Origin: a virus
Virus record (IMG/VR): IMGVR_UViG_3300045008_000161
Coordinates: 1-26,363 of that record
Direction: 5' to 3' (one strand)
DNA length: 26,363 bases
Positions 1,913 to 6,245 of the stretch are shown piece by piece. Position numbers and translations under genes: made by a program. The notes under the pieces are model-generated. The model saw only the letters and a program-made list of their open reading frames with translations, was not told where the DNA came from and searched no databases. Position 1 is the stretch's first letter. Each line of letters starts with the position of its first letter.

Positions 1913-2100
1913 CTGAGGCCGAGAAGCGGGTCGAGGAAGCTTGGGAGGAACTCTACTGCACGCGGATGCACGGGACGCGCACCACGGCCGTCCTGGGCGT
2001 CCAGGTGTGGGCGCACGAGGTCGAGGAGGGCGAGTGCGCTGCCCGCGCCCTGGCCGACGCCCTAGCGGCGCTGCGGCGAGAGCGGGAGGAGGAGCCGTGA
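1909..2100 (+). CDS. hypothetical small acidic protein
   Basis: A 63-residue protein starting at ATG 1909, overlapping the nuclease stop (ATGA) and itself overlapped by the GTG start of the methyltransferase (GTGA at 2097-2100). It is strongly acidic, begins TEAEKRVEEAWEELY, and the C-terminal ALADALAALRREREEE is an amphipathic helix. No cysteine cluster or catalytic motif is seen. The tight coupling to both flanking genes suggests co-translation with the nuclease and methyltransferase. Function is unknown. Confidence 0.6.
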   Translation: MTEAEKRVEEAWEELYCTRMHGTRTTAVLGVQVWAHEVEEGECAARALADALAALRREREEEP

Positions 2101-3005
2101 CCATCGGCTCACTGTTCAGTGGGATCGGCGGCCTGGAGCTTGGCCTTGAGCGCGCTGGCCTCGGGCCGACGATCTGGCAGTGCGAATGTGACCCGTACTG
2201 CCGCGAAGTCCTGGAGCGGCATTGGCCCGGCATGACGAGGTATCCCGATGTCAGAGCAGTTGACGCTTCTGCTGTCCGACCCGACCTCATCTGCGGCGGC
2301 TTCCCCTGCCCGCCCGTCTCGTGTGCGGGCAAGGCCCGAGCGCAAGCCGATCATCGGTGGCTGTGGCCGGAGTTTGAGCGGGTTCTGTGCGTGCTACGAC
2401 CGCGCCTTGTCGTCGTGGAGAACGTACCCGGCCTGCTCCGGGCAAACCGGGGCACCGCCTTCGGAGACGTGCTCCGTTCGCTGGCCGACCTCGGGTACGA
2501 TGCGGAGTGGTGTCGTATCGGAGCGTGCGACGTTGGAGCACCGCACAGACGGCACCGGATCTTCGTCGTCGGATGGCTGGCAGACGCCGGGCGCGGATTC
2601 GTTTCGCAGCCGGGGTGGCGAGCGGAAGGGGGAGGCGGGGCTGGACAGGCAGGCGAGGACATGGCCGTCGCCGACCGCAGGGATGGAGACGCCAGAGGAC
2701 ATGGCGCAGGCACGATACGCAGGGAACGGCGGCAAGCGACCAGCGTATGCCATGACTGGCCTCCCGGGCCCGACGACGCAGACGGATGGCGCGACTATCT
2801 CCAGCGGCATCCCAACTGTGCGCCCACCCGGCCGCGTGCTTTCTCCTTCGTTCGTGGAGGCCCTGATGGGGTTCCCGGATGGCTGGACGCTCGTGCCCGC
2901 CGTGCTCGCCTCCGTTGTCTTGGCAACGCGGTCGTGCCGCAGGTCGCGGAAGTTGTCGGACGGTGGGTCCAGAGCATTGCGGAACGGGAAGGGCTGACGG
3001 CATGA
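2097..3005 (+). CDS. C5-cytosine DNA methyltransferase (Dcm family)
   Basis: Transfers a methyl group from S-adenosylmethionine to C5 of cytosine in DNA, most plausibly to protect phage DNA from host restriction. The 302-residue protein starts at GTG 2097 (GTGA overlap) because motif I, SLFSGIGGLELGLERAG, follows at once. Other motifs in order: GGFPCPPVS with catalytic Cys71 (motif IV), VVVENVPGLL with Glu108 (VI), GAPHRRHRIFVVG (VIII, with HRR where QRR is usual), and LGNAVVPQVAE (IX/X). The region between VIII and IX, which chooses the target, is short and of low complexity (LADAGRG, VADRRDGDARG). Length is at the short end of the family. The 3' two thirds also has a recognisable protein in the +1 frame (2248-2997). 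No frameshift is needed to complete the enzyme. Confidence 0.93.
   Translation: MTIGSLFSGIGGLELGLERAGLGPTIWQCECDPYCREVLERHWPGMTRYPDVRAVDASAVRPDLICGGFPCPPVSCAGKARAQADHRWLWPEFERVLCVLRPRLVVVENVPGLLRANRGTAFGDVLRSLADLGYDAEWCRIGACDVGAPHRRHRIFVVGWLADAGRGFVSQPGWRAEGGGGAGQAGEDMAVADRRDGDARGHGAGTIRRERRQATSVCHDWPPGPDDADGWRDYLQRHPNCAPTRPRAFSFVRGGPDGVPGWLDARARRARLRCLGNAVVPQVAEVVGRWVQSIAEREGLTA
2248..2997 (+). CDS. overprinted +1-frame protein, 'WPxPTA ... MGFPxGWT' family
   Basis: A 249-codon open frame lying wholly inside the C5-methyltransferase gene, shifted +1. ATG 2248 has GAGG seven bases upstream. The translation carries the ordered motifs of a phage family often loosely labelled 'DNA methylase': AAASPARPS near the N-terminus, ALSSWRT, WPTSGTMRSG, LEHRTDGTGSS, DGWQTPGADS, TWPSPTAGME, and RVLSPSFVEALMGFPDGWT near the C-terminus. 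Bases encoding LADA or VADR in the methyltransferase frame read WQTP or WPSPT here, so the two families look like alternate readings of the same DNA. It may be a real dual-coded gene, or the named family may itself derive from misread methyltransferase genes. No catalytic residues can be assigned. Motif resemblance is from memory; translation is unproven. Confidence 0.4.
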   Translation: MSEQLTLLLSDPTSSAAASPARPSRVRARPERKPIIGGCGRSLSGFCACYDRALSSWRTYPACSGQTGAPPSETCSVRWPTSGTMRSGVVSERATLEHRTDGTGSSSSDGWQTPGADSFRSRGGERKGEAGLDRQARTWPSPTAGMETPEDMAQARYAGNGGKRPAYAMTGLPGPTTQTDGATISSGIPTVRPPGRVLSPSFVEALMGFPDGWTLVPAVLASVVLATRSCRRSRKLSDGGSRALRNGKG

Positions 3006-4764: not shown

Positions 4765-5016
4765 ATGGCTCGCGGGGCAGCGGCGGCAAAAGCGACAACG
4801 CCGCGAGATCCAGTATACGAGGCCGGGGAGAGGGTGCGCCGGATGGCTGGGGCCATCATGCGCGCAGTCTTCATCGAGGACAAAGACACTGACATGATTG
4901 CGGAGTTGTCCGGCAAGCTGGCCGAGGCCGCCAAGGCCCTGGCCGTAGCGAGGGCCAACGCGCTTGTGGCCAGTTGCTTGTCGGTTCGCAGATCAAAGCC
5001 AGGGAGCGAGAAGTGA
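4765..5016 (+). CDS. hypothetical helical protein
   Basis: An 83-residue protein with ATG 4765 behind a GGGGGGAGA ribosome site. It is Ala-rich; residues 22-72 (RVRRMAGAIM ... LAEAAKALAVARANALVAS) form a near-continuous amphipathic helix. The GTG of the ParB-methyltransferase overlaps its stop (GTGA at 5013-5016), so the two are probably translated together. No known family is recognised. An overlapping frame from ATG 4727 has a less protein-like composition and was not chosen. Confidence 0.55.
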   Translation: MARGAAAAKATTPRDPVYEAGERVRRMAGAIMRAVFIEDKDTDMIAELSGKLAEAAKALAVARANALVASCLSVRRSKPGSEK

Positions 5017-6245
5017 GAAGGGAACAGACTTCGCGGGACATCGCCGACCTCGCTCCCGACCCGCGCAACCCGCGGCGGATCACCGCCGAAGCCGCGGCCG
5101 GACTCGGGGAGAGCCTGCGCCGCTTTGGTGACATCGCGGGCATCACATGGAACAGGCGCACCGGGCACCTGGTCACGGGACACCAGCGCATTGCGCAACT
5201 ACGCGCGGCCGGGGCGACCGAATGGATCGTGGACGGCGAGCGGCGCTGGATAGAACACCCTGCCACGGGTGAGCGCTTCTCCGTGCGCGTGGTGGACTGG
5301 GATGAACAGACGGAGCGGCAGGCGAACATCGCAGCGAACAACCCGAGCATCGGCGGCGAGTTTACGGAAGACGCGCTCAGGCAACTTGAGGAGCTTGCGT
5401 CACAGGAAGTAGACCTCGGGCCGCTGCGGCTCGACGTGCTCATGGACGAACTGGCGCAGGCGGCGACAACGTCCGAGGCGTCGGAGCCGGATGGCCCGAC
5501 GGCCGAGGACGAGGCTCCGGCTGCGCAGGAGGCCACGGTTTCGCGACCGGGCGACCTGTGGATGCTCGGGCGGCACCGGCTTTTGTGCGCGGACTGCACC
5601 GATCCGGCCGCTGTTGCAAAATCCATGAGTGGGGAAACCGCTGATGTTTGCCTGACGGATCCGCCGTACGGCGTGGGCCTGGGATATAGATCATTTGACG
5701 ATTCAGAGGAGGCCGCACGTGCGCTCGCGGCAAGGTGGCTGCCGCTCGCACGCGAGGCGGCACATGCCGTTGTTTTCTCGTGTGGGATAAGAGAGCAATG
5801 GTTATATCCGTGTCCCGATTGGGTGCTTTGTTGGTTCTATGGTGCAGGTCCGTTTCCGTCACCATGGGGTTTCAACTGCTGGACCCCATTCCTGGCCTAT
5901 GGTAAAGATCCGAGGTCGCGCGCCGGGCGAGGATCTTGGCCCGATGCGCTGAATCTCAATGTGCCCGCCAATGCCGCCGACATAGACCACCCATGCCCAA
6001 AGCCGGTAGCTCTGTGGGGATGGATGATCAAGAGGCTTTCGACGCGCGGCCAGACGATTCTTGACGTGTTCGCGGGCTCGGGAACGACCCTCATCGCGGC
6101 GGAGCAACTGGGTCGCATTGCGCGCCTTGTCGAACTTGACCCGCACTACTGCGACGTGATCATCCGTCGCTGGCAGCGGCTCACAGGCAGGAAGGCGACG
6201 CGCGAGGACGGGGCGGCGTTCGATGATCTGGAGCCGGCCGCATGA
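5013..6245 (+). CDS. ParB-like domain / N6-adenine or N4-cytosine DNA methyltransferase fusion
   Basis: A 410-residue protein from GTG 5013, with AGGGAG upstream. Residues 1-100 are ParB-like: IADLAPDPRNPR, SLRRFGDI, then LVTGHQRIAQLRAAG with the GHxR nucleotide-binding motif. Residues 190-400 are an amino-methyltransferase of the beta class: DPPYG (from Asp216) is the catalytic motif IV and DVFAGSGTTLIAAEQLGR (from about 351) the SAM-binding motif I. This domain pair is common in phages and modifies DNA, probably against restriction. An acidic linker (about 145-185) joins the halves. From about 5615 to 5910 the codons are conspicuously AT-ending (TTA, ATA, AGA, GGT, TAT), unlike the flanks; this covers the segment between the two motifs that sets target choice, suggesting a recombined specificity region. 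Confidence 0.92.
   Translation: MRREQTSRDIADLAPDPRNPRRITAEAAAGLGESLRRFGDIAGITWNRRTGHLVTGHQRIAQLRAAGATEWIVDGERRWIEHPATGERFSVRVVDWDEQTERQANIAANNPSIGGEFTEDALRQLEELASQEVDLGPLRLDVLMDELAQAATTSEASEPDGPTAEDEAPAAQEATVSRPGDLWMLGRHRLLCADCTDPAAVAKSMSGETADVCLTDPPYGVGLGYRSFDDSEEAARALAARWLPLAREAAHAVVFSCGIREQWLYPCPDWVLCWFYGAGPFPSPWGFNCWTPFLAYGKDPRSRAGRGSWPDALNLNVPANAADIDHPCPKPVALWGWMIKRLSTRGQTILDVFAGSGTTLIAAEQLGRIARLVELDPHYCDVIIRRWQRLTGRKATREDGAAFDDLEPAA

Follow-up and report, generated by a model that had tools for sequence, protein, structure and literature searches.

In C5-cytosine DNA methyltransferases (C5-MTases) the small domain is placed between motifs VIII and X, and motif X packs back onto the large domain. 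In M.EcoHK31I the open reading frame (ORF) of the beta chain lies in an alternate frame inside the gene of the alpha chain. This enzyme (YGGCCR) is a two-polypeptide C5-MTase carrying motifs I-VIII and X on the large and motif IX on the small chain (PMC3404938), and its predicted target recognition domain (TRD) was placed on the large subunit (PMC3404938). M.AquI (CYCGRG) is likewise a split C5-MTase, whose second chain contains the distal variable region together with motif IX (PMC3404938). A further protein, hidden within the gene of a phage methylase but read in a different frame, was identified as an inserted homing element (PMC11855218).

Here we describe a methyltransferase locus in a stretch of virus DNA of 26,363 bases (the window, i.e. 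the whole stretch that was analyzed), in which terminase, portal, capsid and sheath genes are present. The locus consists of a frame-0 gene (alpha) and of an ORF in the +1 frame of the same DNA (beta). Compared by the layout described in the literature, it exhibits the same motif split as M.EcoHK31I, the small chain containing motif IX and the large chain motifs I-VIII and X. The predicted TRD of M.EcoHK31I, however, has been assigned to the large chain, whereas in the present locus it is the frame of beta in which the TRD region is under selection; furthermore, M.EcoHK31I represents one restriction-modification system, whereas the present split is found in phages, bacteria and archaea. A search of E. 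coli for EcoHK31I-like genes yielded only four genomes, and the two loci inspected lay in prophage-like surroundings. In M.AquI, as in the Twister-type genes described below, motif X is also carried by the second chain, whereas in the window it is part of alpha and beta lies wholly inside the alpha gene. The homing element mentioned above is an insertion, whereas the DNA shared with beta encodes motifs and the recognition region of the methylase itself. The catalytic motifs of alpha are also those of E. coli Dcm and other single-chain C5-MTases; in Dcm, however, a single frame contains every motif and the +1 frame is interrupted by stops in motifs IV-VIII, whereas motif IX of the window is read in +1. 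In the papers searched, no description was found of the general pattern or its breadth, of the double change of frame or of the additional hidden protein beta' introduced below.

Results

The frame-0 methyltransferase and its missing motif

The features of the locus are outlined in Table 1. Alpha matches phrog_363 over residues 1-295 (4.3e-68) and the Pfam model PF00145 with 6.4e-42, the latter match being confined to residues 1-163. In agreement with the motifs of PF00145, motifs I, IV (GGFPCPP; PC), VI (ENV), VIII (HRRHR; RxR) and X (LGNAVVPQ; GNAVVP) were identified in alpha, and a search for the motif IX pattern in frame 0 of the gene revealed that it is absent. The initial annotation had described this frame as intact with all motifs, which has to be corrected with respect to both the missing motif IX and the limited reach of PF00145. 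A TRD and a motif IX in the same chain were not found in alpha, whose frame-0 TRD is unconstrained and predicted to be disordered: in the AF2 model, pLDDT exceeds 90 across most of residues 1-165 and in the motif X helices and falls below 50 at residues 171-226 and 239-254, which comprise most of the frame-0 "TRD". Foldseek aligned only about 166 residues of this model with M.HhaI. Elsewhere in the window, a fusion of a ParB-like domain and a DNA methyltransferase (phrog_620 and phrog_498/67) is encoded at 4974-6245 (+), with the terminase gene downstream.

Table 1 Coordinates of the overlapping methyltransferase frames and their motifs in the window.
Feature	Position	Strand	Remarks
alpha, C5-cytosine methyltransferase ORF, frame 0	2097-3005	+	GTG start after GGGAGGAGGAG; motifs I-VIII and X, motif IX absent
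alpha motif X, LGNAVVPQVAEVVGRWV	2919-2969	+	frame 0 conserved again: pi.295/.187/.656; N/S 0.24
beta, overprinted +1 ORF, 249 aa, proposed small-domain subunit	2248-2997	+	phrog_1008, 9.6e-19; conserved at >100 loci, stop avoidance, +1 purifying selection in TRD/IX
GAGG, candidate Shine-Dalgarno site of beta	2237-2240	+	7 nt 5' of ATG 2248
beta N-terminal part over alpha motifs IV-VIII (SSWRT, WPTSGTMRSG, TDGTGSS)	2248-2577	+	+1 stop-free; frame 0 dominates selection
SSWRT (beta)	2410-2424	+	
WPTSGTMRSG (beta)	2482-2511	+	
TDGTGSS (beta)	2545-2565	+	
beta target-recognition-like region (WQTP...TWPSPTA), alpha linker in frame 0	2578-2838	+	N/S +1 0.35, frame 0 1.74, close relatives
WQTP (beta)	2578-2589	+	same DNA as frame-0 LADA 2577-2588
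TWPSPTA (beta)	2659-2679	+	WPSPT on same DNA as frame-0 VADR 2667-2678
beta motif IX, LSPSFVEALMGFPDGWT	2839-2889	+	aligned by hhalign with the motif IX of phage MTases made as one chain; reversed codon-position variability
MGFPDGWT (beta)	inside 2839-2889	+	

A long ORF in the +1 frame

The initial annotation had pointed out an open +1 frame of 249 codons with its own ATG and a GAGG seven nucleotides upstream, and both are borne out by the sequence; the six motifs from SSWRT to MGFPDGWT which it had listed were all located (Table 1). Phrog_1008 was also matched in a six-frame search of the window (1.7e-16 and 6.6e-5) and matches all 13 members of set A2, with values up to 4.8e-39. Its label "DNA methyltransferase" implies a complete enzyme, whereas the members found here correspond to the small-domain part only. 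No model in Pfam or NCBIfam covers the beta family, and a search of the PDB sequences with the A3 beta profile gave no match. The segment LSPSFVEALMGFPDGWT at the end of beta fits the motif IX form L-x-P-x-x-x-x-x-[LM]-[MQ]-G-[FY]-P, and in the hhalign profile comparison of beta with single-chain phage MTases motif IX was aligned with a probability of 97.4 (E 1e-11), the alignment being restricted to motif IX, with none across the beta TRD. For beta, AF2 gave a model of low quality (mean pLDDT 58, pTM 0.24), with two hairpin-like strand pairs in the N-terminal part.

Taken alone, the window gene is only mildly unusual in the openness of its +1 frame, as 3.2% of its synonymous-codon resamplings contain no +1 stop (P = 0.032). 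The MGFPxGW of the window gene was retained in just 0.4% of the synonymous resamplings.

Distribution of the split among relatives

A first set of relatives, about 40 diverse viral loci showing both frames, was picked with +1 patterns and is hence biased. Consequently, the tests were rerun on a second set, which was picked on frame-0 patterns only from viral contigs and GTDB genomes and contains 148 loci with a frame-0 motif X. In 111 of the 148 loci the frame-0 motif IX is absent and MG[FYL]PxxW is found in +1, with a stop-free +1 frame between motifs IV and X in 93 of the 111; 13 loci carry the canonical motif IX in frame 0, none of them with an open +1 frame, and 24 fit neither pattern, whereby it has to be considered that loci within each sample are related and the counts are therefore not independent events. 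By synonymous-codon resampling, in which the expected number varies with the codon usage of the individual gene, 437.8 +1 stops were expected in the split loci versus 9 observed, and 71.5 versus 51 in the canonical ones. Frequent +1 stops in close relatives, regarded initially as an argument against a second protein, were thus not encountered; they are rare. A broad range of phyla is represented, archaea among them, and AT-rich loci also occur (L096, GC3 0.36). Openness of the +1 frame by chance or through high GC content was considered as well and was ruled out by the synonymous resampling and the low-GC loci.

Independent relatives of the +1 product, whose existence the initial annotation had left to be checked, were found: it is an annotated gene in the mycobacteriophages Twister, Phlei and Phanphagia and in Paenibacillus phages, and in Rani it appears as "g50 Internal gene". 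For Paenibacillus larvae phages the annotation lists the two overlapping genes. A tblastn search of phages gave 1 match with beta of the window as query and 206 records with a better beta query. When 299 genomes of one proteobacterial phylum were compared with the beta profile, 26 gave matches with E <= 0.001, some of them likely passive images with stops.

Natural variants of the split were observed as well. In Twister and its relatives, and in cluster A and other mycobacteriophages (L061, L062, L063, L342-L362), alpha does not extend beyond motif VIII, and the overlapping +1 gene carries TRD, IX and X, resulting in an AquI-like split. In Candidatus Megaera (L230) and in L087, L121, L196 and L218 the PTP recognition region is read in +1, and motif IX is back in frame 0 together with X. 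Close relatives such as L083 and L084 are near-identical in motifs I-VIII and continue with unrelated recognition regions, which suggests that the recognition cassette is exchanged right after motif VIII.

Selection in the two frames

For 22 close pairs the frame-0 N/S amounts to.27 (motifs I-III),.37 (IV-VIII), 1.74 (TRD), 1.86 (IX) and.24 (X) and the +1 N/S to 1.49, 1.28,.35,.27 and 1.55 for the same regions, these values being plain rate ratios, calculated with a constant weight for transitions, from pairs of which several have a member in common. Evidently, the selected frame switches after motif VIII and returns before motif X. In the TRD and motif IX of the close pairs wobble changes do not freely alter the +1 residues, in contrast to what the initial annotation had suggested would be seen for a spurious frame. 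The diversity by codon position in 95 of the loci chosen on frame 0 is in line with this switch: motif X gives.295/.187/.656 and the +1 motif IX stretch.403/.197/.240, the most variable codon position of the latter stretch being the +1 wobble position. At one motif IX site the +1 residue is M in 92 of the 95 loci, whereas frame 0 reads D, H or N there. The stop counts, the codon-position diversity and the N/S values all indicate purifying selection on the +1 frame, as is expected for an overprinted gene.

In motifs IV-VIII frame-0-silent changes that create +1 stops are rare (.110 versus.414 in I-III). The avoidance of +1 stops sets in near motif IV, where starts bearing a Shine-Dalgarno-like (SD-like) site cluster; among the 111 loci the first +1 ATG carries such a site in 37%, compared to 9% in the +2 control. 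ATG 2248 of the window lies 16 codons 5' of motif IV and within this cluster. According to the sequence data, the +1 ORF of the window is real and most likely translated.

Further overprinted methyltransferases

Classical related MTases with the canonical motif IX in frame 0 were intended as a negative control, and 1 +1 stop was observed in their motifs IV-VIII versus 236 expected. In L237-L316 (e.g. L240:685-1143 and L244:673-1179) a +1 ORF, beta', spans motif IV to just beyond VIII and is under +1 purifying selection. Beta' differs from beta: it carries SLSDILETDVPPKYYLSPKACxGILRRAxKRGKxLP (short form LSPKACxGILRRAxKRGK) and matches phrog_16143. In its C-terminal part the N/S is 1.24 in frame 0 and.36 in +1; downstream of its stop codon they change to.24 and 1.36, respectively.

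Another subfamily, the enterobacterial prophage MTases, shows 2 +1 stops versus about 290 expected over 240 codons and LMG[LFYWM]P in +1 in 65 of 73 cases. Its members L401:440-1426 and L403-L482 contain a long +1 ORF with WPTPVAND...LNPAHSRWLMGLPRAWD. The E. coli PT62 prophage carries two overprinted MTase genes of this subfamily about 2 kb apart, and in L402:3374-4135 (E. coli PCP07014) a decayed overlapping MTase copy has an internal stop in both frames. Dcm-like genes, checked for +1 stop avoidance, showed none comparable, and the avoidance is therefore not a trait of all C5-MTases. Three +1 architectures were thus observed: beta with TRD and motif IX, the same in the enterobacterial prophage subfamily, and beta' inside complete MTases. 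Judged by these sequences, the overprinting is broader than the known precedent, since beta' is found in classical MTases that are complete in frame 0. It is probable that +1 overprinting is a general and old property of much of the phage-type C5-MTases.

Discussion

The DNA of the locus is dual-coding, the selected frame changes by region, and the motifs are split between the two frames. Based on these results we propose, with a probability of about 0.83, that two overlapping reading frames of the locus together specify a heterodimeric C5-cytosine DNA methyltransferase. Alpha would provide the large catalytic domain with motifs I-VIII, an unconstrained and probably disordered linker, and motif X. 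Beta, putatively translated from the internal ATG 2248 just 5' of motif IV, would constitute the small domain with the recognition region and motif IX, and both chains would associate as one enzyme whose target is presumably recognized by beta. With the small domain as a separate chain in the other frame and motif X kept on alpha, the DNA of TRD and motif IX is consequently read in both frames. The enzyme is most likely an orphan phage methylase that would shield the phage DNA from host restriction. A separate "DNA methylase" family, to which the +1 protein had been assigned in the initial annotation, is not supported; the protein most plausibly represents the small domain that alpha lacks.

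The opposite view regards the +1 frame as passively mirroring a conserved methyltransferase and phrog_1008 as an outcome of misannotation. It can draw on the similar out-of-frame translations that are expected from homologous genes, on the +1 letters following frame 0 in IV-VIII (+1 N/S 1.28) and on ordinary MTases matching the N-terminal half of beta, with many stops. It is nevertheless extremely improbable, as merely 9 +1 stops face 438 expected ones and the Dcm-like control does not show stop avoidance. Within TRD and motif IX, where frame 0 is unconstrained and +1 constrained, this reading is refuted, and for the DNA of motif IX conservation is higher in the +1 residues than in those read in frame 0 (M 92/95 versus D/H/N). 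Of the two outcomes between which the initial annotation had not decided, misannotation is thus contradicted by the relatives and the selection tests, phrog_1008 being beta itself, and genuine overprinting is supported by the stop avoidance and the reversal of N/S in TRD and IX. Its idea of two families as frame-shifted images of one another holds for part of the gene in each direction: in IV-VIII +1 is largely the image of frame 0, although stops in it are avoided, and in TRD and IX frame 0 is the image of +1, the frame-0 LADA and VADR merely reflecting WQTP and WPSPT.

As the selected frame changes exactly at the VIII/TRD and IX/X borders, a single chain could also arise without a separate start of beta, from ribosomes that enter the +1 frame behind motif VIII and return to frame 0 ahead of motif X; the resulting chain would show the textbook motif order. 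Two opposite programmed shifts would be required for this, however, and the +1 frame is stop-free with SD-linked starts far upstream near motif IV, which a shift at VIII does not need; as annotated relatives moreover have their own starts, we consider such shifting unlikely. A real beta with another job, as a regulator or as an anti-restriction or nuclease partner rather than an enzyme subunit, would be compatible with the conserved beta' of MTases that are complete in frame 0, which cannot represent a missing domain. This assignment appears very unlikely, because beta possesses motif IX exactly when alpha is without it (111 loci versus 13 controls) and because the mycobacteriophage beta can hold both IX and X. 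The low quality of the beta model, the absence of a PDB match to the beta profile, the only mildly unusual openness of the window gene taken alone and the assignment of the M.EcoHK31I TRD to the large subunit speak against the heterodimeric reading. Against it also stands that the classical related MTases, which do not need beta, are likewise open in the +1 frame of IV-VIII. For this reason the openness of IV-VIII cannot serve as sole proof and, taken alone, is no evidence for a small-domain subunit; the results for TRD and motif IX are.

The proposed arrangement of half-enzymes in two frames looks widespread and mostly unannotated in phages and bacteria. If the proposed heterodimer is correct, many annotated phage and bacterial 5mC methylases would be present in the databases as half-enzymes, many "DNA cytosine methyltransferase" annotations would cover one of two products, and single-ORF cloning, domain models, specificity prediction and methylome assignment would be misleading. 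Beta' would be a second conserved protein hidden inside complete methylases. Furthermore, prokaryotes would offer a clear example of long overprinting on the same strand that is also widespread, in which the selected frame switches twice within one gene along structural domain borders, and a recognition domain could become a separately encoded, exchangeable subunit.
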